Assembly: GCA_029861795.1 (NCBI GenBank)
Contig: JAOTYS010000091.1
Location: 1-12,711, forward strand
Length of the DNA stretch: 12,711 nt
Source: Gammaproteobacteria bacterium
GTDB lineage: Bacteria > Pseudomonadota > Gammaproteobacteria > Arenicellales > JAOTYS01
Reading direction: 5' to 3'
Positions 2 through 11,444 of this stretch are shown in pieces. The notes beneath the pieces were generated by a model. That model did no database searches. It was not told where the DNA came from and saw only the letters and a program-made list of their open reading frames with translations. Made by a program: the position numbers and the translations under genes. The first letter of the stretch is position 1. The number at the start of each line of letters is the position of its first letter.

Positions 2-388
2 GATATTTCCAGGTTTGAGCAATATATGACGCGAGTGCGCGAGCTTGGCCTGCATGAAAGGTGTTTCATTTTGGTGGGTGTGGGGCCATTGGCGTCTTCG
101 AATGCCGCACGCTGGATACGTGAGCATGTCCCAGGTGTTCATATACCAGATGCAGTCATTGACAGGCTGGCGCGGGCAGAGAAGCCAAAACGGGAAGGAC
201 GCATGCTGTGTGTAGAGCTAATTCAGCAAATTCGTGAGATTGAAGGTGTCGCCGGCATTCACGTAATGGCTTATCGTCAGGAGGAAGCCGTGGCGGAAAT
301 TATCGATGCATCGGGAGTGTTGCAAGGGCGCGTTCCCTGGTATCCCGGTCAAGAAAGCGTATCAGAACCCCACAGGGTAACGTTATGA
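2..388 (+). CDS. metF: Methylenetetrahydrofolate reductase (MetF family), C-terminal part only
   Basis: The window opens inside this gene; the first whole codon is at position 2 and 128 codons remain before TGA. The family is usually about 300 residues, so roughly the first 170 are missing. The visible part matches the end of the MetF TIM barrel: a strand with LVGVGPL, the segment VPGVHIPDAVIDRLARA, then the helix VELIQQIREIEGVAGIHVMAY that leads into the last strand and helix. MetF enzymes are flavoproteins that interconvert methylene- and methyl-tetrahydrofolate. Its stop overlaps the start of the next gene (ATGA), so the two are translationally coupled. Beside a methyl-THF:corrinoid methyltransferase, it most likely runs in the oxidative direction, turning methyl-THF from demethylation into methylene-THF (inference). 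The flavin-binding N-terminal half cannot be inspected. Confidence 0.88.
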   Translation, partial: DISRFEQYMTRVRELGLHERCFILVGVGPLASSNAARWIREHVPGVHIPDAVIDRLARAEKPKREGRMLCVELIQQIREIEGVAGIHVMAYRQEEAVAEIIDASGVLQGRVPWYPGQESVSEPHRVTL

Positions 389-1296
389 CCGACACCGTGG
401 TCAGTTCGCCTACCAAGGAAGTAGTGATTGGGTTCGGTCGACCGTTTTGCATAATCGGCGAACGCATCAATCCCACAGGTCGCAAAGTATTGGCCGCGGA
501 GATGGCTGCGGGCGACTACAGCCGTGTCGAAACCGACGCGTTGGCGCAGGTCTCCGCGGGCGCGCACATGTTGGACGTCAATGCCGGCATTCCGTTGGCG
601 GATGAGCCACGCATACTGGCGGAGGCGGTGCAGCTGGTCCAGTCGTTGATCGACGTTCCTTTATCCATTGATTCCTCTATTGTTGCAGCGTTAGAGGCAG
701 GGCTTGCTGTATATCGGGGCAAGGCGCTGGTGAACTCGGTGACCGGAGAGGAGGAACGTCTGGAGTCGGTGCTGCCATTAGTCAAAAAACACGGTGCGGC
801 TGTGGTGGTGATCTCCAACGACGAGACCGGTATTTCCGAAGATCCTGATGTGCGTTTCGCGGTCGCCAAAAAGGTCGTGGAGCGTGCCCAAGACCACGGC
901 ATTCCGCCTTGCGACGTGGTGGTTGACCCGTTGGTGATGCCTATCGGAGCCATCAACCAGGCAGGCCGTCAAGTGATGTATATCGTTCAGCGGTTGCGCA
1001 ACGAGCTTAAAGTCAATACAACCTGCGGCGCATCGAATGTTAGTTTTGGCCTACCTAACCGGCAGGGACTGAACGCCGCTTTTTTGACCATGGCGATCGG
1101 CGCCGGAATGACTTCAGCGATTACCAGTCCCCTGCATCCGGAGGTGATGCAGGCAGTGATGGGCGCCGACGTCATCGCGGGACACGATCCGGAGTGTCGT
1201 CGTTGGATCATGAAATACCGTGAAGCCCCCGCGGCTGGCGCTGAGGGAGCACGTGGGGGCCGCGAGCGCAGGCGGCGCAGAAAACTCATAGGTTAA
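385..1296 (+). CDS. Methyltetrahydrofolate:corrinoid methyltransferase (pterin-binding, DHPS-like fold)
   Basis: This 303-residue protein has the pterin-binding TIM-barrel pattern of the DHPS/AcsE/MtgA-like methyltransferase family. Visible motifs are IIGERINPTGRK near residues 21-34, MLDVNAGIP at 62-70 with Asp64 and Asn66, VNSVTGEE at 116-123, a DPLVMPIG strand, and GASNVSFGLPNR at 215-226. Asn218 in the last motif probably corresponds to the folate-contacting Asn known in the acetogen MeTr. Such enzymes move a methyl group between a corrinoid protein and tetrahydrofolate. The start is the ATG in an ATGA overlap with the metF end, preceded by a CACAGGG ribosome site. The domain ends near residue 280 and is followed by a strongly basic tail (GGRERRRRRKLIG), which is not part of the fold. 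It is a full-length stand-alone methyltransferase; the fused Cys/cobalamin modules of MetH are absent. Confidence 0.88.
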   Translation: MTDTVVSSPTKEVVIGFGRPFCIIGERINPTGRKVLAAEMAAGDYSRVETDALAQVSAGAHMLDVNAGIPLADEPRILAEAVQLVQSLIDVPLSIDSSIVAALEAGLAVYRGKALVNSVTGEEERLESVLPLVKKHGAAVVVISNDETGISEDPDVRFAVAKKVVERAQDHGIPPCDVVVDPLVMPIGAINQAGRQVMYIVQRLRNELKVNTTCGASNVSFGLPNRQGLNAAFLTMAIGAGMTSAITSPLHPEVMQAVMGADVIAGHDPECRRWIMKYREAPAAGAEGARGGRERRRRRKLIG

Positions 1297-1310: not shown

Positions 1311-3335
1311 ATGACTGCACGCGCTGATGTATTGGTGGTGTTCACACCTTCGGGTCGCCGCGGGCGGTTTCCCGTAGGCACACCAGTGCTGCAAGCGGCA
1401 CGGTCTTTAGGTGTGGACATCGATTCGGTGTGTGGTGGCCGAGCCCTTTGTGGGCGTTGTCAGGTCTTATTGAGCGAAGGGGAATTCGCCAAACATGGTT
1501 TGACTTCGCGTAAGGAACACCTTTCGGCTTTCAGTGAGGTAGAGAAGGAATACGCCGAGACTCGCGAGCTTGCTTCCGGTCGGCGTCTCAGCTGTTCCAC
1601 CCAAATACTGGGGGATGCGGTTATCGATGTACCACCTGATAGCCAGGTGCACCGTCAGGTGGTGCGCAAAGGTGTGGAAGTCTACGACATCGATCTCGAT
1701 CCAGTTGTGCGGCTCTACTATGTGGAGGTGCAAGAGCCCAATATGCACGATCCCTCAGGGGATTTGCAGCGTCTCAAAGAGGCATTGGAGTTTGAATGGA
1801 GGTTGGAGGGTCTGAATTGTGATTTGCGCTTACTACAAGATTTGCAGGAGGCCCTACGTCAGGGCGAGTGGAAAGTCACCGTGGCGGTGCATGATAACAA
1901 CAAGATCATTGCGGTGTGGTCGGGCTTTCACGACAAAGCGTATGGGTTAGCCATCGATGTCGGCTCCACAACAGTGGCGGCCCATCTCTGCGACCTGTCT
2001 AGTGGAGACGTGGTCGCTTCGTCGGGTGTTATGAATCCGCAGATTCGATTTGGTGAGGACCTAATGAGCCGCGTATCCTATGTGATGATGAATCCGGGAG
2101 GAGATTCGGATATGACCCGGGTGGTGCGTGATGCAATCAATCAGCTTGCTCGTGAAGTGGCAGTGGACGCGGGAATTGAGATCACTGACATACTGGAAGC
2201 TACATTTGTCGGTAACCCCATCATGCACCATCTGCTACTTGGCATTAATCCTGTGGAGCTGGGGGGAGCCCCGTTCGCGCTTGCAACCGATGAATCTATC
2301 TCGATTTGGGCGTCTGAGTTGGACCTTGAGTTTCACCCGAATGCCCGGGTGTTTGTGTTGCCTTGCATCGCCGGCCATGTTGGTGCAGACACCGCCGGTG
2401 TAATTCTTGCTGAAGCACCACACATGCGTGATGAGGTCACATTACTGGTGGATGTGGGAACTAATGCGGAGATCGTGCTCGGAAACCGTGACCGCCTGCT
2501 CGCCGCGTCTAGTCCCACCGGACCTGCATTCGAAGGAGCGCAAATCAGTTGCGGGCAACGTGCTGCGCCTGGTGCAGTAGAAAGGGTACGTATCAACCCC
2601 GATACGCTGGAACCTCGTTTTAGTGTGATTGGCTGTGACAAGTGGTCCTGTGAACCGGATTTTCCAGAGGCTGTGGGCAATGTCGGTATCACCGGTATCT
2701 GTGGGTCTGGAATCATCGAAGTGATCGCAGAGATGTATCTTGCCGGTATCATCAGCAGCGACGGGGTTATCGATGGCAGCTTCGCGGCGAAGACCCCACG
2801 AGTGGTGGCGGATGGCCGCACGTTTGCGTACACGCTTTACCAAGGTGACGTGAACTTACGGATTACCCAAAATGATGTGCGCGCCATCCAGCTTGCTAAG
2901 GCGGCACTCTATGCCGGCGTTCGTCTATTGATGGATCGAATGGGGTTGGATGGTGTTGATCGGATTCGGTTGGCCGGCGCCTTCGGCAGTCACATCGATG
3001 TGAAATACGCCATGGTGCTCGGATTGATACCGGATTGCGACTTGGCCCATGTCGGATCCGCCGGTAATGCGGCCGGCACAGGGGCACGTGTCGCATTGCT
3101 CAATCGCACCGTGCGACCCACCATTGAGGAAATTGTCAAAAGGGTCGAAAAAGTAGAAACCGCAGTGGAGCCGAGGTTTCAAGAGCACTTTGTCGATGCG
3201 ATGGCAATTCCCCACAAAAGCGCTGCTTATCCTAACTTGTCCAAACTGGTGAAGTTACCCGAACCCAAGGTACTCAGTGATGCCACATCTGGTGGCACCC
3301 GTCGCTCTCGCCGCCGCAGCGCACGAAGCGGGTGA
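1311..3335 (+). CDS. RACo-type corrinoid reductive activator ([2Fe-2S] ferredoxin + ASKHA/DUF4445)
   Basis: The 674-residue product starts with a plant-type [2Fe-2S] domain whose ligands are visible as CGGRALCGRC (Cys41, Cys47, Cys50) plus Cys95 in RRLSCSTQ. A linker domain follows (about 100-205), then an ASKHA ATPase-like domain: AIDVGSTTVAAHLCD near 213, the second phosphate-type loop LLVDVGTNAEIVLG near 378, GICGSGIIEVIAEM near 460, and IRLAGAFGSHID near 552. In acetogens and methylotrophs such proteins use ATP to reduce accidentally oxidised Co(II) corrinoid back to Co(I). The gene lies 14 nt after the methyltransferase, almost certainly in the same operon, and serves the methyl transfer encoded around it. 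It ends in a basic tail (GGTRRSRRRSARSG), echoing the tail of the preceding protein. All four cluster cysteines are present and there is no sign of damage. Confidence 0.9.
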   Translation: MTARADVLVVFTPSGRRGRFPVGTPVLQAARSLGVDIDSVCGGRALCGRCQVLLSEGEFAKHGLTSRKEHLSAFSEVEKEYAETRELASGRRLSCSTQILGDAVIDVPPDSQVHRQVVRKGVEVYDIDLDPVVRLYYVEVQEPNMHDPSGDLQRLKEALEFEWRLEGLNCDLRLLQDLQEALRQGEWKVTVAVHDNNKIIAVWSGFHDKAYGLAIDVGSTTVAAHLCDLSSGDVVASSGVMNPQIRFGEDLMSRVSYVMMNPGGDSDMTRVVRDAINQLAREVAVDAGIEITDILEATFVGNPIMHHLLLGINPVELGGAPFALATDESISIWASELDLEFHPNARVFVLPCIAGHVGADTAGVILAEAPHMRDEVTLLVDVGTNAEIVLGNRDRLLAASSPTGPAFEGAQISCGQRAAPGAVERVRINPDTLEPRFSVIGCDKWSCEPDFPEAVGNVGITGICGSGIIEVIAEMYLAGIISSDGVIDGSFAAKTPRVVADGRTFAYTLYQGDVNLRITQNDVRAIQLAKAALYAGVRLLMDRMGLDGVDRIRLAGAFGSHIDVKYAMVLGLIPDCDLAHVGSAGNAAGTGARVALLNRTVRPTIEEIVKRVEKVETAVEPRFQEHFVDAMAIPHKSAAYPNLSKLVKLPEPKVLSDATSGGTRRSRRRSARSG

Positions 3336-3360: not shown

Positions 3361-4398
3361 CTAGGGGTTTCTGGCAACCGCTTTACTGTCGTTTCGTAAC
3401 TCGCCTTGGGGTGGACTTGCTTGCCGCAGTCTGCGCTCGTCGCGTGGTGGAATGCCAAAAAAATCGCGATAGCATTTACTGAAGTGGGGTGCGGAGACAA
3501 ATCCGCAAGACAGCGCCACGTCCACGATCGACTTGCTGGTTTGTAGCAGTAGCTGACGTGCCCGGGTCAGTCGCAGTTCTAGATAGTACCGAGTGGGAAC
3601 ACATTTCAAGTGTTTTTGGAACAGGCGTTCGAGTTGTCGTCGCGACAGACTCACATGTTGTGCTAACTCATCCAAGCTCATCGGCTCTTCAAGGTTCGAT
3701 TCCATCAAAGACACCGCTTCCACCAACTTGGGTTGGCCTGTACCGAGGTGCGACTTCAATGGGATTCGCTGGCGGTCATTGCGTCCCCGAATGCGTTCGC
3801 AAATGAATTCCTCTGAGATTGCTGCGGCCAGCTCTGCGCCGTGATGTTCTCGAATAAGATTCAGCATCATGTCTAGCGGTGCTGTGCCGCCGGAACAGGT
3901 ATAGCGATCTCTATCGATCTCAAACAGCTCGGCGGAGACAATAACGCGAGGATATTCCTCCCTCAGGCTCGCCATGTTCTCCCAATGGATGGTGCAGCGG
4001 TAGCCGTCTAGTAGGTTCGCACGTGCGAGTAAGTGTGTGCCGGTGCACAACGATCCCATGGCAATCTTTCGACTCGCGACCTTGCGTAACCAAAACAGAA
4101 GGCTCTTGCCGGCAGCGCGATCAACGTCTACCCCGCCACACACAAACAAAGTGTCAATCGTGGCGCATTCCGCGATCGAACAACTTGGTGTGATCTCAAG
4201 CCCGTTACTCGAGGCAACAGGTTGTCCGTCGGCGCTGACGATGACCCATTCGTATAAGATTTGGCCACTGAGCCGATTTGCCATTCTCAAGGGCTCGATC
4301 GCCGAGGCAAAGGCGATCATCGAAAAGTCGGGGACTAGCAGGAAGCCAAAGCGACGAGTTTTCTGACCTTCCGTACTAATGACTTTGGGCTGTTCCAT
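3361..4398 (-). CDS. GATase1-AraC family transcriptional regulator (GlxA/GbdR/CdhR type)
   Basis: The 345-residue protein has an N-terminal DJ-1/PfpI-like domain (about 15-185) and a C-terminal AraC DNA-binding domain (about 225-325). In the first domain FLLVPDFSMIAFASAIEPLR, DTLFVCGG and the elbow MGSLCTGTHLLA (Cys118), then TIHWE, are typical of the family. The second shows two helix-turn-helix units, MSLDELAQHVSLSRRQLERL and IVDVALSCGFVSAPHFSKCY. Known relatives GbdR and CdhR sense glycine betaine or carnitine catabolism, which fits an MttB-family locus. The likely role is activator of this cluster, responding to its substrate or an intermediate (inference). The open frame extends to a TTG at 4449, but the ATG at 4398 gives a normal N-terminus, and a candidate promoter lies inside the extension, so I chose 4398. 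No good ribosome site is visible at either start. It lies 126 nt downstream of the OCD gene on the same strand. Confidence 0.88.
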   Translation of the reverse strand: MEQPKVISTEGQKTRRFGFLLVPDFSMIAFASAIEPLRMANRLSGQILYEWVIVSADGQPVASSNGLEITPSCSIAECATIDTLFVCGGVDVDRAAGKSLLFWLRKVASRKIAMGSLCTGTHLLARANLLDGYRCTIHWENMASLREEYPRVIVSAELFEIDRDRYTCSGGTAPLDMMLNLIREHHGAELAAAISEEFICERIRGRNDRQRIPLKSHLGTGQPKLVEAVSLMESNLEEPMSLDELAQHVSLSRRQLERLFQKHLKCVPTRYYLELRLTRARQLLLQTSKSIVDVALSCGFVSAPHFSKCYRDFFGIPPRDERRLRQASPPQGELRNDSKAVARNP

Positions 4399-4427
4399 AG
4401 ACCACAGGGATATGTCGCAAAGACAAT

Positions 4428-4456
4428 AATGTATGACGCAGCAGGGCAAACATCAA
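4428..4456 (-). promoter_or_regulatory. Candidate sigma70-like promoter for the AraC-type regulator
   Basis: On the minus strand TTGATG (4456-4451) is separated by 17 nt from TACATT (4433-4428). Each box matches the sigma70 consensus at 4 of 6 positions and the spacing is optimal. It lies about 30 nt upstream of the ATG at 4398. If real, it lets the regulator be transcribed independently of the OCD gene and argues against the TTG start at 4449. Confidence 0.33.
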
Positions 4457-4524: not shown

Positions 4525-5487
4525 TTAGGCGTCGTTCTCGATACGCGACACCAGTATCTCGGCAGTCATTAGGTCCAGATGCCCGCCGCCGCCGTTCTTA
4601 AAGATAGTAATTTCATCTCGAGTGCGGCGGCCAGCTACGGTGTTGCGGCACAGATCGTATAGATCCCCCAAAATGTCGTGTTCGGTGATCACCCCCGCTT
4701 CCATGGGCAACAGGATCTCACCGATCTCACCGACGGTCGTCTTCCTGGAGTCTACATAGATGTTGCCACGACGCATTGCCTCGTCGTCGGCCTCGCGCAT
4801 GGTCTTCGTAAAAGCGCCCACCAGATCCAAGTGACAACCTGGCTGCAACCACTCTCCTTTGATCAAAGGGGTGGTGACACGGGTGGCACAGCAGATTATA
4901 TCCGCCTGACGGGCAGCGGCTTCAAGGTCGGTGGTGGCTACTGCTTTCACCCCGCTGACACTGAGTGCATCGGCGAGCTTCGTCGCTCGGGCACTATCGC
5001 GATTCCATATGCTGACCTGACCTATGCTAGGTCGTACCGCACGATGCGCGGCGATCAGTGGCGCCGCCATCGCGCCTGCGCCAACCATAAGCAAGTGCTC
5101 CACATCTTCTCGCGCGAGATAACTTGCCCCCAAGGCAGAGTCTGCCGCAGTCTTACGCCAGGTCAGCGCGGTGCCGTCAATAACTGCTTTTAGGCTGCCG
5201 TCGCTACCATCGAACAGTACGTAAATGCCCTGGATGGCAGGCAGGCCGGTGGCACCCGGGTTATCCGGAAAGATGGTGACCAGCTTCACGCCCATCGCCT
5301 GGTGTCTTTGCCACGCAGCACGAAAGAAGAAATGAGTGGCCGTTCCAGTCGCTCCCGGCTGTTCCAGCAGTAGGTCTTCCATTACGTCCATATCGGCTTG
5401 ATGTAAGTCTTTTAGCCCGGCCACCAGATCGGGATAGTCCAGCAGTTGTTCTACTCGGTGCGCGTCGATGAAAATTATCCGCGACAT
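4525..5487 (-). CDS. Ornithine cyclodeaminase / mu-crystallin family NAD(P)-dependent enzyme
   Basis: The 320-residue product has the family layout: an N-terminal substrate part with GVKLVTIFPDNP (Lys69 is the conserved family lysine) and DGTALTWRKTAADSALGA (Arg111/Lys112), a Rossmann domain opening with MVGAGAM at 134-140, and a C-terminal KNGGGGHLDLMTAEI segment. The family includes ornithine cyclodeaminase, ketimine/pyrroline-2-carboxylate reductases, alanine dehydrogenase and EutC of ectoine degradation. The catalytic Asp of true ornithine cyclodeaminase (Asp228 in Pseudomonas putida, from memory) appears replaced: the stretch reads LVGAFTKTM, with Phe226 at that place. A reductase or EutC-like activity is therefore more likely than cyclodeamination. 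It is divergent from the ectoine-hydrolase-like M24 gene across 82 nt, so the two probably act on the same or successive intermediates. The gene has no clear Shine-Dalgarno sequence. The exact substrate is unknown. Confidence 0.85.
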   Translation of the reverse strand: MSRIIFIDAHRVEQLLDYPDLVAGLKDLHQADMDVMEDLLLEQPGATGTATHFFFRAAWQRHQAMGVKLVTIFPDNPGATGLPAIQGIYVLFDGSDGSLKAVIDGTALTWRKTAADSALGASYLAREDVEHLLMVGAGAMAAPLIAAHRAVRPSIGQVSIWNRDSARATKLADALSVSGVKAVATTDLEAAARQADIICCATRVTTPLIKGEWLQPGCHLDLVGAFTKTMREADDEAMRRGNIYVDSRKTTVGEIGEILLPMEAGVITEHDILGDLYDLCRNTVAGRRTRDEITIFKNGGGGHLDLMTAEILVSRIENDA

Positions 5488-5569: not shown

Positions 5570-6736
5570 ATGCCAATCCATTTTGCCAAGGAAGAACTAA
5601 AGCTGCGTCGAACGATGGCCGCCAATGAGCTAATCTCCAGAGGCTTAGAGGGGTTACTGATGTTTCGCCAGGAGAGCATGTATTACCTCGCCGGCTATGA
5701 CACGTTCGGCTATTGTTTCTTTCAATGTCTATACCTACATGCCGATGGGCGTATTACATTGCTGACCCGTGCCCCGGATTTGCGTCAGGCGCAACATACC
5801 TCAGTGATAGAGGACATTCGAATTTGGGAAGATAGTGCGGGTAAAAATCCGGCGCAAGATCTTAAAGCGATTCTCGAGGAGTACGGTTGTAAAGGTAAGA
5901 AGGTTGGTATCGAGTACGACGCCTACGGTTTGACCGCGTTTAATTGGCGGCGTGTTGAGCAACAATTATCGGGGTTTTGCACGCTGGAGGACGCCTCGGA
6001 TTTGGTGAGTCGGCTCAGGGTGGTGAAAAGCCCCGCGGAGATCGAATACGTACGTCGCGCCGGGAAACTGGCGGACGCAGCGCTGGAGCAGGCCAACGAA
6101 CTCGCAGCGCCAGGTGTATTTGAAGGCGACATCCTGGCGGCGATGCAAGGTGTTGTGTTCTCCGGTGGCGGCGACTATCCGGGCAATGAGTTTATTATCG
6201 GCGCGGGTGATGATGCCTTGCTTTGTCGCTATTTCACCGGACGTAAACACCTCGCCCAACAGGACCAGCTCACTATCGAATTCGCGGGCGCCTATCGGCG
6301 CTATCACGCCTGTTTGATGCGCACCATAGTGGTCGGCAAGCCCGATGCAGCCCACTTGGATATGCACCAGGCTTGCGTTGACGCGATGCAGGCATGCTTG
6401 GACACGCTCAAACCTGGGCGCGCGATGGGCGAGGTGTTCGATGCCCACGCAAAAGTGATGGATGCTGCAGGTTATCGTAAACACAGGATGAACGCCTGCG
6501 GCTATAGCCTGGGTGCCACCTATACGCCGACGTGGATGGATTGGCCCATGTTCTATACGGGGAATAGTGTCATTATTGAGACTGACATGGTGTTTTTTCT
6601 CCACATGATTCTGATGAACAGCGAAGACCATAAAGCAATGACCCTAGGTCAGACTGTCAGGGTGACCGGCGACGGTCACGAGCGTTTGAGTAAGGCCCCA
6701 CTGGATTTGGTTGTAAAATCTCCGGAGACCAGATAG
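5570..6736 (+). CDS. Ectoine hydrolase/creatinase-like M24 family protein lacking metal ligands
   Basis: The 388-residue protein has a creatinase N-terminal domain (about 1-150) and a pita-bread M24 domain (about 155-380). The five metal ligands of metallo-members (Asp, Asp, His, Glu, Glu) all appear replaced. TIEFAGAYRRYHACLMRT has Glu237 and Cys248 where the Asp pair should be; ACGYSLG puts Tyr312 at the His; MVFFLHMI puts His345 at the first Glu; MTLGQTVRV puts Gly360 at the last Glu. The motifs ACGYSLGATYTPTWMDWPMF and VFFLHMILMN strongly recall ectoine hydrolase (DoeA/EutD), which opens the ectoine ring without metal. So it is probably a metal-free amidohydrolase acting on a cyclic amidine, amide or guanidino-type C-N bond. 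No EutE/DoeB deacetylase is in the window, so ectoine itself is not assured. The start ATG has only a weak purine run upstream. Confidence 0.82.
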   Translation: MPIHFAKEELKLRRTMAANELISRGLEGLLMFRQESMYYLAGYDTFGYCFFQCLYLHADGRITLLTRAPDLRQAQHTSVIEDIRIWEDSAGKNPAQDLKAILEEYGCKGKKVGIEYDAYGLTAFNWRRVEQQLSGFCTLEDASDLVSRLRVVKSPAEIEYVRRAGKLADAALEQANELAAPGVFEGDILAAMQGVVFSGGGDYPGNEFIIGAGDDALLCRYFTGRKHLAQQDQLTIEFAGAYRRYHACLMRTIVVGKPDAAHLDMHQACVDAMQACLDTLKPGRAMGEVFDAHAKVMDAAGYRKHRMNACGYSLGATYTPTWMDWPMFYTGNSVIIETDMVFFLHMILMNSEDHKAMTLGQTVRVTGDGHERLSKAPLDLVVKSPETR

Positions 6737-6827: not shown

Positions 6828-8393
6828 ATGAGCGAAGCAGGTCGGCGCATGGGTGGACGGGCGGCGCGACGTGCGTTACGCGCAGCCCCTATACCTGAGG
6901 AGGAGAAGGCAGTTAGACCTGGCATGCAAGGAGGTCGCTACAAGCCATTGTCAGATGACGATGTAAACCGAATCCACCATGCCGTGCTTGATGTGCTGGA
7001 GAACATTGGATTGTCCCAGGGCATTCCGTCCTGCGTTGACTTGCTCACCGGCATCGGCTGTACCTTATCCCCCGAAGGCCGATTGCTTTTTCCCAGAGCA
7101 TTGGTGGAAGACACCATCGCAAATGCTGCGCGCAACTTTGTGCTTCATGGCAGAGATCAGGCACATGACATGGAGCTCTCCGGAAATAAAGTTTACTTTG
7201 GTACCGCAGGAGCCGCGGTCCATATCGCCGACTGCGATACGCGGGAATATCGTGAATCCACGTTGGCAGACCTATACGATGTGGCACGGCTGGTAGATTC
7301 TCTGGAACACATCCACTTTTACCAGCGTTCTCTAGTGGCTCGTGACATGACTGATCCACGCGAGTTGGACATCAACACCGCATACGCTTGCCTCAGTGGC
7401 ACCAACAAACACGTAGGGACTAGTTTTGTGCTGACGGACTACCTGGACGAAACCATGGACATGCTGCATTTGGTGGCGGGTGGCGAGAAGCAGTGGCGCG
7501 AAAGACCTTTTGTTAGCATGTCCAACTGTTTTGTTGTGCCGCCATTGAGATTCGCAGAAGACGCCTGCGGATGTCTTGAGGCTGGTGTGCGTGCGGGTAT
7601 GCCGATATTGTTGCTGGCTGCCGGCCAAGCCGGCGCTACCAGCCCTGCGGCGTTAGCCGGTGCCGTGGTTCAGGAAGTGGCCGAGGTGTTGGCCGGTCTG
7701 GTTTATGTCAATGCCATTAAACCCGGGCATCCGGCCATATTTGGGACCTGGCCATTCGTCTCAGACTTGCGCACCGGGGCGATGAGTGGCGGAAGTGGTG
7801 AACAGGCTGTGCTGATGGCGGCTTGTGGTCAAATGGGTCGTTACTACGATCTGCCTACCGGCATTGCGGCGGGTATGGCCGACGCCAAGTTACCCGATGC
7901 GCAGTCTGGGTTTGAGAAGTCTTATACCAATGTGCTTGCGGGGCACTCGGGCGCCAACCTGGTGTACGAATCTGCCGGGATGCATGGAAGCCTGTTGGGA
8001 TGCTGTTTCGAAAGTTTTGTTATCGATAACGATATGTTAGGCGCCATTCAGCGTACCATCCGCGGTATCGAGGTAACCGAGGACAGTCTGTCCATTGAGT
8101 CTATAAGGGATGTTTGCATTGGTGGGCCCAATCACTTTCTGGGTCACTCCCAGACCATGGAGTTGATGCAACGAGATTACATCTACCCCGAAATCGGCGA
8201 TCGCACTAGTCCCAAGGAATGGGGCGAACAAGGCTCTACCGATATGCTACAGCGCGCACAGAAGCGCCTGCGTGAACTGATGACAAGCCACTATCCTCAA
8301 TACATTGACCCGGAGCTGGATGCTCAGATCAGACAACAATTTCCCATCAGGCTCCCGCCGGAGTTGATGAAACCTGGCAACGATAGGTGGTAG
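6828..8393 (+). CDS. MttB-family (non-pyrrolysine) methylamine/betaine:corrinoid methyltransferase
   Basis: The 521-residue product is a full-length MttB-family TIM-barrel protein. Recognisable stretches are ELDINTAYACLSGTNKHVGT, GTWPFVSDLRTGAMSGGSGE, GIAAGMADAKLPDAQSGFEK (about 345-363), YESAGMHGSLLGC and IGGPNHFLGHSQTMELM. The family moves a methyl group from a quaternary or tertiary amine to a corrinoid protein. Archaeal MttB uses pyrrolysine for trimethylamine, whereas homologues such as MtgB (glycine betaine), MtpB (proline betaine) and MtcB (carnitine) lack it. This frame has no internal TAG and TAG is the real stop, so it belongs to the non-Pyl group; the exact substrate is open. The N-terminus carries an Arg-rich segment (GRRMGGRAARRALRAAP) seen in many proteobacterial members. 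The ATG is well placed 7 nt after an AGGAGGA ribosome site at 6814-6820. It follows the M24 gene by 91 nt. Confidence 0.9.
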   Translation: MSEAGRRMGGRAARRALRAAPIPEEEKAVRPGMQGGRYKPLSDDDVNRIHHAVLDVLENIGLSQGIPSCVDLLTGIGCTLSPEGRLLFPRALVEDTIANAARNFVLHGRDQAHDMELSGNKVYFGTAGAAVHIADCDTREYRESTLADLYDVARLVDSLEHIHFYQRSLVARDMTDPRELDINTAYACLSGTNKHVGTSFVLTDYLDETMDMLHLVAGGEKQWRERPFVSMSNCFVVPPLRFAEDACGCLEAGVRAGMPILLLAAGQAGATSPAALAGAVVQEVAEVLAGLVYVNAIKPGHPAIFGTWPFVSDLRTGAMSGGSGEQAVLMAACGQMGRYYDLPTGIAAGMADAKLPDAQSGFEKSYTNVLAGHSGANLVYESAGMHGSLLGCCFESFVIDNDMLGAIQRTIRGIEVTEDSLSIESIRDVCIGGPNHFLGHSQTMELMQRDYIYPEIGDRTSPKEWGEQGSTDMLQRAQKRLRELMTSHYPQYIDPELDAQIRQQFPIRLPPELMKPGNDRW

Positions 8394-8491: not shown

Positions 8492-10330
8492 GTGGGGTGG
8501 CCACGTCACTCATGTTCTGCGAAACGTCTGTCCATTGTTTGTGAAAACCCATCAGTGAACCCGCTCAGTCGCTCACAAATCCTCCCTGAAACGGTCCTCC
8601 CGGATGCAGCCGAGATGCTAGCGCAGGGCCGCAGCCTCGCGCCGGATGTGACGGTAGCGAGTTGCCCGTTTCTCACCACATACGACGTCCAATCCGAGAT
8701 CGAATACAAACAGGCGCGTGTTGGGGAACAGGCAATAATGCTCCACGCACAAGTGGGGTATCGTGATCTTGAAAAGAGCAAGCGTGCATATGCCGAGATT
8801 TGTGAGCGAGTCGCGGCAGCGGGCCATCGTGTAGATCGATATGGCATTTGTTTGGATTGGAGTATGGGTTATCCGACAAAGGCGCGGCGTAATATGCCCC
8901 GTGGCACCGGATTAATTCTGCAAAACTGTGATGAGTTCGCTCAACTGACTGCGATGGCGCCAGTAGCCCCTCACTTCGGCGACTTTGTTATGGGTATGCC
9001 TGCTGCCGTTGAGAACACTGTGGCGGCATTACGAGCTGGTGCAACATGTATCGGCAACTTAGGGCAATACTTCACTTTTCGTCTACCTCATTGGCATGAC
9101 GATGTGGAGACCACGGCTGAGACCTTAAAGGCATTGGCGCTGGTCGCAGCCCAACCCGTGCCAGTCTTAATTCATTCTAACCTCGACGATGGTTTTGCCG
9201 CGCTTTTCCGCGACCTTTCTTGTGCGCTTGGTGCAGTGCTATTGGAGCAGTACATCGTAGAAGAACTGGTGGGCGGCCGAATCGGTCATTGTTACGGTCA
9301 TACCTACTCCGATCCTATAACTCGGCTGGCGTTTCAACGTGCCCTTGTCCGAGTCAGCAATGCGCCCGGCACCATGGTGTACGGCAATACCACGATCTTT
9401 GGTGCGGAGCTGGCGCAAAATTATGCCTCTTTGTCGAGTTATCTCCTGGTGGACATCTTGGCTCAGAAGGCCAATCCAAGCGGACATGCGCTAAATCCTG
9501 TTCCGGTAACAGAGGCGATTCGAATTCCCGAGATCGACGAAATCATCGACGCCCATCTGTTCGCAAATCGTTTGGTTGAGATGACAGACAAGATAAAGTC
9601 GTTGTTCGATATTGAGAAAGTTGACGAGACAGTGGAACAACTGGTGAGTGGTGGGCAGCTTTTTAAGCAACGTGTGTTGTCGGGTCTTGCAGAAGCAGGC
9701 ATTGATATCAGTGATGCTTTCGAGTTGTTACTATCTATTCGGCGCATCGGGGCAAGATCTTTAGAGCAACGTTTCGGTCCGGGCCAACTCGACAAGACTG
9801 ACCCCGTGCGACGTGTTCCCGTGGTGCCGGTAAGCACTATAAGCGAATTAGAACAAAGGGCGATAAGCTACATTGAGCACCTCAGCGAATCGGACCGAGC
9901 GAATATTCGCAGTGCTCGTTTGACGGGGTGTATTGCGACCACAGACGTGCATGAATATGGCAAACTACTTATTGAAGCCGTGCTGCAGAGATTGGGGGTC
10001 AGCCTAGTGGATGGCGGGGTGAGCACTGATCCAGAGGTATTGATAGGTCGTGCAATCAAAGGCCCGGTGGATTTTATCGGGCTGAGTACCTACAACGGTG
10101 TGGCCCTAGACTACCTGCAACGCACTCAAGTCGAGATGGAGAAAGCCAATTTGGGTGTGCCCATCTTTATCGGCGGCAGGCTGAACCAGATTCCAGAGTC
10201 CACTAATACAAGCCTGCCGGTAGATGTCAGTCAGGATCTTAACCGCGCTGGCGCGATAGTGTGCCTGCGTATCGAAGATATGTTCGAGCGGTTAGTCGCT
10301 ATGGCGAAACAGCGCCAGAGGGCTCGGTGA
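8492..10330 (+). CDS. Cobalamin-binding protein with glutamate-mutase-like N-terminal domain
   Basis: The product is 612 residues if the GTG at 8492 is used; a GTG at 8555 is an alternative, and neither has a strong ribosome site. The C-terminal 130 residues are a B12-binding Rossmann-like domain with DVHEYG (DxHxxG motif: Asp485, His487, Gly490), GLSTYNG (Ser532 region) and IFIGGRL (Gly561-Gly562), the base-off/His-on signature. The STYNG form resembles the SLYG loop of glutamate mutase more than corrinoid methyl carriers. Residues about 60-400 include GDFVMGMPAAVENTVAALRAG and GNLGQYFTFRLP, whose layout recalls the barrel of glutamate mutase subunit E (remembered similarity, not an alignment). 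It may be an adenosylcobalamin-dependent mutase with both parts in one chain, or a novel corrinoid carrier for the neighbouring MttB-like enzyme. No MttC-like helical cap is obvious before the B12 domain. Confidence 0.72.
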   Translation: MGWPRHSCSAKRLSIVCENPSVNPLSRSQILPETVLPDAAEMLAQGRSLAPDVTVASCPFLTTYDVQSEIEYKQARVGEQAIMLHAQVGYRDLEKSKRAYAEICERVAAAGHRVDRYGICLDWSMGYPTKARRNMPRGTGLILQNCDEFAQLTAMAPVAPHFGDFVMGMPAAVENTVAALRAGATCIGNLGQYFTFRLPHWHDDVETTAETLKALALVAAQPVPVLIHSNLDDGFAALFRDLSCALGAVLLEQYIVEELVGGRIGHCYGHTYSDPITRLAFQRALVRVSNAPGTMVYGNTTIFGAELAQNYASLSSYLLVDILAQKANPSGHALNPVPVTEAIRIPEIDEIIDAHLFANRLVEMTDKIKSLFDIEKVDETVEQLVSGGQLFKQRVLSGLAEAGIDISDAFELLLSIRRIGARSLEQRFGPGQLDKTDPVRRVPVVPVSTISELEQRAISYIEHLSESDRANIRSARLTGCIATTDVHEYGKLLIEAVLQRLGVSLVDGGVSTDPEVLIGRAIKGPVDFIGLSTYNGVALDYLQRTQVEMEKANLGVPIFIGGRLNQIPESTNTSLPVDVSQDLNRAGAIVCLRIEDMFERLVAMAKQRQRAR

Positions 10331-10568: not shown

Positions 10569-11444
10569 ATGATTAGTGCACAACAAGTCAATGCGTACCG
10601 AGATAACGGTTATCTGGTGGTGGAGAACGCCATCGAACCGACGTTGCTTGAAAGATTGCGAAAGGCGACAGCGGAGTTCATCGAGCGTTCCAGAGAGGTC
10701 AGCGTCAGCGATAGCATCTATGATATCGGTCTTGGCCACAGTCCGGATCGTCCGGTCGTTCGGCGTTTGAAGAACCCCCATCAGCAGCACTGCGTGTACG
10801 ACCAGGCCATGCGTTCACCGCGGTTGGTGAGCATCGTCAAGGCATTGCTTGGCACAGATGTACGATTTGATCACAGTAAGCTCAACTTCAAACCCTTGGG
10901 TGGTGACGCGGCGGTGGAATGGCATCAAGACTGGGCATTTTATCCTCATACCAATGATGACATCCTTGCTGTAGGGGTCATGCTGCAAGACTGTGATCTG
11001 GAAAATGGGCCGCTAATGGTTATCCCGGGTTCGCACAAGGGCCCTATCTACGATCATCATCACAACGGCTATTTCGTTGGCGCGTTAGATCCTAACGATG
11101 CCGACGCGGTGATAGGCAATGCTGTAGCGCTTACGGGCAAAGCGGGCTCGGCCAGCTTCCATCACGTGCGCACCATCCATGGATCCGCTGAGAATCGGAG
11201 CTGCGGTGATCGACCCATATTGCTTTTCAGTTACGCGGCTGTGGATGCCTGGCCCTTAGTAGATGTTTACGACTGGGACGAATTCAACAGCCGTATTCTG
11301 ACCGGTGATGTGACGTGGGCGCCCAGACAGAAGCCTTTGCCCATCCGCATCCCGCTACCGAAAGTGCCTGTCGCAGATTCGATTTATGACGACCAAGCAT
11401 CGATAAGAGGTCGGTCCTTCGCGAAAATCTCAGCATCACATTAA
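10569..11444 (+). CDS. Phytanoyl-CoA dioxygenase family Fe(II)/2-oxoglutarate oxygenase
   Basis: The 291-residue protein shows the PhyH-family double-stranded beta-helix core. The facial triad is visible as WHQDW (His119, Asp121) and RTIHGSAEN (His204), and Arg215 in DRPILLFSYAA is the probable 2-oxoglutarate binder. LENGPLMVIPGSHKGPIYDH is the typical strand preceding the distal histidine. Such enzymes hydroxylate an unactivated carbon using O2 and 2-oxoglutarate, so the host lives at least partly aerobically. The EctD (ectoine hydroxylase) signature around the first histidine is not present, so that role is unlikely. It precedes a class II aldolase-like gene by 29 nt, which suggests hydroxylation followed by C-C cleavage of the same compound (inference). 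A clear ribosome site is lacking before the ATG. Confidence 0.86.
   Translation: MISAQQVNAYRDNGYLVVENAIEPTLLERLRKATAEFIERSREVSVSDSIYDIGLGHSPDRPVVRRLKNPHQQHCVYDQAMRSPRLVSIVKALLGTDVRFDHSKLNFKPLGGDAAVEWHQDWAFYPHTNDDILAVGVMLQDCDLENGPLMVIPGSHKGPIYDHHHNGYFVGALDPNDADAVIGNAVALTGKAGSASFHHVRTIHGSAENRSCGDRPILLFSYAAVDAWPLVDVYDWDEFNSRILTGDVTWAPRQKPLPIRIPLPKVPVADSIYDDQASIRGRSFAKISASH

Follow-up and report, generated by a model that had tools for sequence, protein, structure and literature searches.

Contig JAOTYS010000091.1 of a gammaproteobacterial genome (GenBank assembly GCA_029861795.1), whose whole length of 12,711 nucleotides we call the window, encodes a cobalamin (B12) protein, here named B12X. The gene starts 161 bp past a gene for an MttB-family methyltransferase (mttB) and ends 238 bp ahead of a gene for a PhyH-family dioxygenase. 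The longer open reading frame (ORF) around it, 8492-10330 by ORF call, is real; the database copy of the protein (P0001) has 591 residues, and the alignment of homologues begins at the GTG codon at 8555. The gene and its features are as follows:

8555..10330, + strand: B12X, single-chain B12-dependent mutase-like protein of 591 residues, GTG start (placed from the ORF call, the length of P0001 and the alignment)
8555..9604, + strand: predicted N-terminal (beta/alpha)8 barrel of the mutase type, spanning roughly residues 1-350 (the boundary is approximate)
9503..9529, + strand: P-V-T-E-A-x-R-I-P motif, residues 317-325, at the last barrel strand
9911..10327, + strand: base-off B12-binding domain at the C terminus, roughly residues 453-591
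9944..9961, + strand: DVHEYG (DxHxxG) cobalt-ligating motif, residues 464-469, invariant in all 34 aligned sequences

The only Pfam domain found in B12X is the C-terminal B12-binding family PF02310 (34.9 bits, residues 462-543 of 591). At E <= 1 this family is present in 34/34 aligned members, together with nine other families that occur in 1-10 members each and include no B12-enzyme barrel family. Searches of NCBIfam (E <= 0.001) and the PDB likewise matched the B12 domain, with MetH best, followed by an archaeal mutase and GlmS; the other weak matches, elsewhere in the protein, are chance-like in appearance. The invariant motif and PF02310 confirm the proposal of an earlier note on this DNA that a base-off B12 domain with DVHEYG is carried in one long chain. 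The barrel has no Pfam or NCBIfam match at E <= 0.001, and a PHROGs search with B12X gave no match. Structure prediction nevertheless points to a GlmE-type barrel in the N-terminal part. The earlier note had claimed a B12-mutase-like barrel here, and such a fold is what the prediction returned.

The nearest point of reference is glutamate mutase of Clostridium cochlearium, which is built from two subunits, GlmE and GlmS (MutE/MutS), whereas B12X is one chain of 591 residues. HHalign comparison with this enzyme found the GlmS domain (E 9.7e-7). The best local stretch over the barrel (E 0.35, not significant) sets PVTEAxRIP of B12X opposite EAxGIP of GlmE; Glu320 and Arg323-Ile324-Pro325 of this motif are more than 95% conserved in both of the B12X subfamilies described below. 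Six arginines of B12X are conserved (R70, R95, R111, R176, R257 and R323). The substrate arginines of glutamate mutase, which we take to be R66, R100 and R149, are not placed in B12X by any significant alignment. A cationic substrate, considered on the basis of conserved acidic residues, was dropped because the six conserved arginines share that region. As no sequence method used here joins the barrel to GlmE, the transfer of function rests on the predicted fold. Methylmalonyl-CoA mutase has a barrel and a C-terminal B12 domain, as B12X does, and gave the best Foldseek match; its PF01642 domain was found in 0/34 members at E <= 1.

B12X belongs to a widespread family. Of 7999 candidates in a protein search, 1588 scored E <= 0.001; the best 120 of these align over 94-97% of the query, with identities of 58-65% (the window's own copy excepted), and matches beyond them may rest on the B12 domain alone. 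A pattern search of species genomes gave 266 matches, 234 of which encode a relative, and 79 distinct loci were kept for neighborhood counts. These are mostly from Alpha- and Gammaproteobacteria (about 70 of the 79 are proteobacterial by record title), with rarer hosts in Chloroflexota, one Acidobacteriota bin, one Bacteroidota genome and two Asgard archaea. Long matches were present in 17 of 385 sampled alphaproteobacterial genomes and 2 of 151 Chloroflexota genomes. Sixteen of the 17 carry subfamily A, that of the window (one of them split over two contig pieces), and 2 carry subfamily B, with one genome having both. Subfamily B sits beside MutL, a partner of adenosylcobalamin (AdoCbl)-dependent mutases: one locus (L116:5998-9972) holds an SDR gene, the B12X relative and MutL, and another (L155:1563-7207) the B12X relative along with what look by eye like genes for MutL and for a CitE-like lyase. 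We regard subfamily B as a separate, MutL-linked mutase family. The tree used here is a quick build that does not contain two further subfamily B sequences intended as outgroup.

The gene neighborhood of subfamily A was compared between sequence within 4 kb of B12X (near, 545.8 kb) and beyond 5 kb (far, 510.9 kb) over the 79 loci, using genes called by a home-made caller, with counts lowered by contig ends. A gene resembling ProC, pyrroline-5-carboxylate reductase, is near B12X at 48/79 loci and solely far at 2. It is the next same-strand gene in 43 of the 78 loci that have a next gene, a count including four plasmid loci. In 16 of 42 listed cases, both Asgard loci among them, its mechanically called ORF has exactly 4 bases in common with that of B12X. 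NCBIfam identifies the Phyllobacterium copy as pyrroline-5-carboxylate reductase (308 bits, cut-off 254); the Hodarchaeota copy, at 168 bits, falls under the cut-off. Alternative NAD(P)-dependent imine or amino-acid dehydrogenase families occur near B12X as well (Asp_DH at 8 loci, Ldh_2 at 1, OCD at 0, with 3 far), so that one of the four families is near at 57/79 loci. Rarer neighbors, as near/far counts, are PhyH (11/0), proline racemase (7/1), M20 (6/0), DapA-like (4/0), FAD-dependent DAO (4/0), Rieske (3/0), MR_MLE (2/0) and M24 (2/3). A separate Pfam tally, which is not the source of these counts, covered 96 of 110 direct neighbors without ProC-like genes plus six hand-picked second neighbors. 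At three Brucellaceae loci and in Ancylobacter, Asp_DH, DAO, proline racemase and DapA-like genes surround B12X together, a combination familiar from hydroxyproline catabolism. In Phyllobacterium, genes for a proline racemase, an aldehyde dehydrogenase, an FAD oxidoreductase and dapA lie less than 10 kb from the ProC-B12X pair on the opposite strand.

The other genes of the window are:

26-388: methylenetetrahydrofolate reductase, C-terminal part only, at the left edge beside MeTr
385..1296, + strand: methyltetrahydrofolate:corrinoid methyltransferase (MeTr), apparently part of the MttB demethylation set (PRK07535, 360.9 bits, cut-off 259)
1311..3335, + strand: RACo-type corrinoid reductive activase (PF14574, PF17651, PF17650)
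3361..4449, - strand: GbdR-type regulator (NF052371, 501 bits, cut-off 480)
4525..5487, - strand: OCD-family delta1-pyrroline/piperideine-2-carboxylate reductase (PRK06141, 335.5 bits, cut-off 322)
5570..6736, + strand: M24 creatinase/ectoine-hydrolase-like protein (PF00557, PF01321; ectoine_eutD 167 bits, under the cut-off of 613)
6828..8393, + strand: MttB-family methyltransferase, 521 residues, no in-frame stop (pyrrolysine-free) (PF06253, 396 bits)
10569..11444, + strand: PhyH-family, ectoine-hydroxylase-like dioxygenase (PF05721)

To judge from their sequences, MttB, MeTr, RACo and the GbdR-like regulator probably serve together in betaine demethylation. The OCD, M24 and PhyH proteins reach ectoine-pathway families only under the cut-offs. 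The OCD gene could possibly stand in for the ProC-like partner. In the tree, the three nearest relatives of the window's B12X (L002, L003 and L009) are ProC-linked, and one of them, L003, has M24 (73%) and OCD (61%) in common with the window.

What we observe directly of B12X is its sequence, predicted fold, conservation, gene context and family spread. Its likeness to a glutamate mutase fused into one chain, together with the frequent imine-reductase neighbor, makes the rearrangement of a small amino acid probable, rather than methyl carriage for the demethylase encoded next to it. We consider it reasonably likely that B12X is an undescribed AdoCbl-dependent mutase in which a glutamate-mutase barrel and a cobalamin domain are fused, and that it acts on a small amino acid of the proline, ectoine or betaine field. 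The earlier note had offered an undescribed AdoCbl-dependent rearrangement as one of two readings of the locus, and the fold, the MutL-linked sister subfamily and the gene context lend it support.

Several observations weigh against this assignment. PF06368 (Met_asp_mut_E), to which glutamate mutase belongs, has no match in any of the 34 members at E <= 1, and HHalign of the barrel against GlmE gave E 0.69 and 0.35, neither significant. Foldseek with the predicted structure placed methylmalonyl-CoA mutase (E 1e-12) ahead of GlmE (8e-9). The best sequence match of the B12 domain is a methyl carrier, MetH, and structural comparison of that domain did not separate mutases from carriers. MutL, which stands beside glutamate mutase and in this family only beside subfamily B, accompanies subfamily A at 0/79 loci in a scan that missed overlapping genes. 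Of the 55 loci flanked by 3 kb on either side, 12 carry none of the four reductase families. Most neighbor probes were taken from near genes, so that the near/far contrast is partly circular for the rarer families, and the neighbor sets vary by clade, so that substrates may vary as well. The window itself has no ProC-like gene, and its OCD gene lies 3.07 kb from B12X on the opposite strand; elsewhere, relatives of this OCD gene are near at 0/79 loci (far at 3) and those of its M24 gene near at 2 and far at 3.

Regarding mechanism, we infer the use of AdoCbl over methylcobalamin, the reaction class, the substrate and the role of the partner. Cobalamin would be held base-off through His466, with the adenosyl group and the substrate both inside the barrel. 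Homolysis would then yield an adenosyl radical in the barrel that initiates a radical 1,2-rearrangement. The substrate, a small amino acid, would most likely come from the proline, ectoine or betaine catabolic field; the neighbor sets would allow more than one substrate. The ProC-like partner, or one of the OCD, Ldh_2 or Asp_DH families, would act on a C-N bond, interconverting imine and amine forms. A tentative, more specific version is a new AdoCbl reaction in which the single-chain mutase, mostly in proteobacteria and in some Asgard archaea, rearranges the skeleton of a proline-, hydroxyproline- or ectoine-type amino acid derived from osmolytes and betaines, and the ProC-like partner then reduces or oxidizes the product in its cyclic imine form. 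In the window, MttB, MeTr and RACo may demethylate a betaine upstream of B12X with a carrier encoded elsewhere.

Membership of B12X in the family of 2-methyleneglutarate mutase (Mgm), an enzyme of nicotinate fermenters, or in a close offshoot of it, is unlikely but is the strongest of the alternatives; it would mean that the architecture is not new. Mgm, a single chain of about 614 residues with a C-terminal B12 domain, is the known enzyme closest in layout, and the Eubacterium/Clostridium barkeri enzyme would share with B12X a single chain of about 600 residues and the place of that domain. Conversely, the name Mgm is absent among 240 listed homologues (two lists of 120, few of them bearing any name), the loci are overwhelmingly proteobacterial, and the neighbors of B12X are amino-acid and imine genes, unlike the genes of the Mgm pathway, at which no search was aimed. 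No placement of B12X in a characterized family was found, the Mgm sequence lying outside the comparison. A cloned C. barkeri Mgm is cited in an excerpt of PMC2667541. Two weak Chloroflexota matches with long frames (L153 and L154), sought as Mgm candidates, resembled folate and corrinoid-carrier genes on inspection by eye.

Next, and also improbable, is an aminomutase like ornithine 4,5- or lysine 5,6-aminomutase, shifting an amino group with or without pyridoxal phosphate (PLP). We take the PLP lysine of lysine 5,6- and D-ornithine 4,5-aminomutase to lie at position His+11. In B12X this residue is Leu, Phe, Met, Cys, Ile or Val and never Lys in all 105 sequences read, of 106, and aminomutase ranks below GlmE. 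An aminomutase variant of the mechanism is thus less likely.

The second reading in the earlier note made B12X a new corrinoid partner, a methyl carrier or methyltransferase serving the MttB-like enzyme, and this we regard as very unlikely. The proximity to mttB, the presence of MeTr and RACo, which liken the window to the MtgBCD system of Ruegeria pomeroyi and to MttB/MttC systems, and the MetH match all favor it, and no MttC-type carrier is found among the 10 ORFs scanned, as the earlier note had stated. The co-occurrence check that it proposed was positive at the level of genomes: MttB is encoded in 11 of 17 alphaproteobacterial genomes with the family versus 72 of 368 that lack it (p 1.0e-4, Fisher test), and in 11 of 17 versus 27 of 120 among the listed genomes of at least 2.5 Mb (p 7.4e-4), both uncorrected for kinship. 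It failed at the level of loci, where MttB is near B12X at none of the 79 other loci; at 4/79 it lies further out, at 6.8-7.6 kb (L019, with 78% identity, and L039, L045 and L050, with 25-27%). Moreover, 6 of the 17 genomes lack MttB, and relatives of the window's RACo or MeTr were found at none of the 79 loci, again in the scan that missed overlapping genes. Linkage to mttB, as expected of an MttC, MtbC or MtgC carrier gene, was seen in the window but within 4 kb at none of the 79 other loci, and we reject an MttB-specific partner role. These carriers are also only about 210 residues long and combine PF02607 with PF02310, whereas the PF02607 helical cap is present in 0/34 B12X members at E <= 1 and the barrel is predicted to be mutase-like; methyl-carrier identity is rejected on the missing cap. 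The co-occurrence across genomes likely reflects a shared betaine-using lifestyle. Since R. pomeroyi MtgC is encoded away from its partners (PMC12478193, excerpt), the true carrier may be encoded elsewhere here too, and its absence from the window calls for no special explanation. A methionine-synthase-like or other folate-linked barrel that only resembles GlmE is the least probable alternative, and a very unlikely one.

A prediction from 2009 described a B12 family in Firmicutes, Chloroflexi and Thermotogae with a TIM-barrel-like part, encoded next to an octopine/nopaline dehydrogenase acting on CH-NH with NAD(P) (PMC2667541, excerpt). B12X shares with it the pairing of a TIM-barrel-like B12 protein and an NAD(P)-dependent CH-NH dehydrogenase, but the B12 domain in that family, as described in the excerpt, is N-terminal rather than C-terminal. 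No paper on the B12X family was found in the open-access literature, judged by title or abstract opening.

To our knowledge few AdoCbl-dependent mutases are known, each of which has opened a pathway. B12X is of note for its wide family, its barrel without a Pfam or NCBIfam match and its recurrent neighbor gene. If confirmed, an AdoCbl-dependent mutase activity would bring into the turnover of amino acids or osmolytes both a need for B12 and a radical step, and the MutL-free and MutL-linked subfamilies would permit a test of MutL's role.

Some loci have further peculiarities. Tandem B12X arrays are present at L010 (about five copies, one with an in-frame stop, on a contig shared with L118) and L016 (four copies), and the copies sit on separate branches of the tree. 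The B12X of a genome titled Mesoflavibacter (Bacteroidota; L031) is 57% identical, has a ProC-like neighbor and clusters with Pacificispira, a grouping that makes transfer or misbinning likely. Three loci from genomes near Pelagibius (L157, L158 and L159) hold glutamate mutase E genes, one in an 877-residue open frame and two with an in-frame TGA. A scan of the window and seven loci gave no cobalamin riboswitch at the gathering score; the sole Rfam matches were to PYLIS_3, the mttB pyrrolysine insertion element, within mttB (7875-7974 in the window and 1910-2009 in L019, both above the gathering cut-off). As the mttB gene of the window is free of in-frame stops, this model seems to track gene sequence and not pyrrolysine use.
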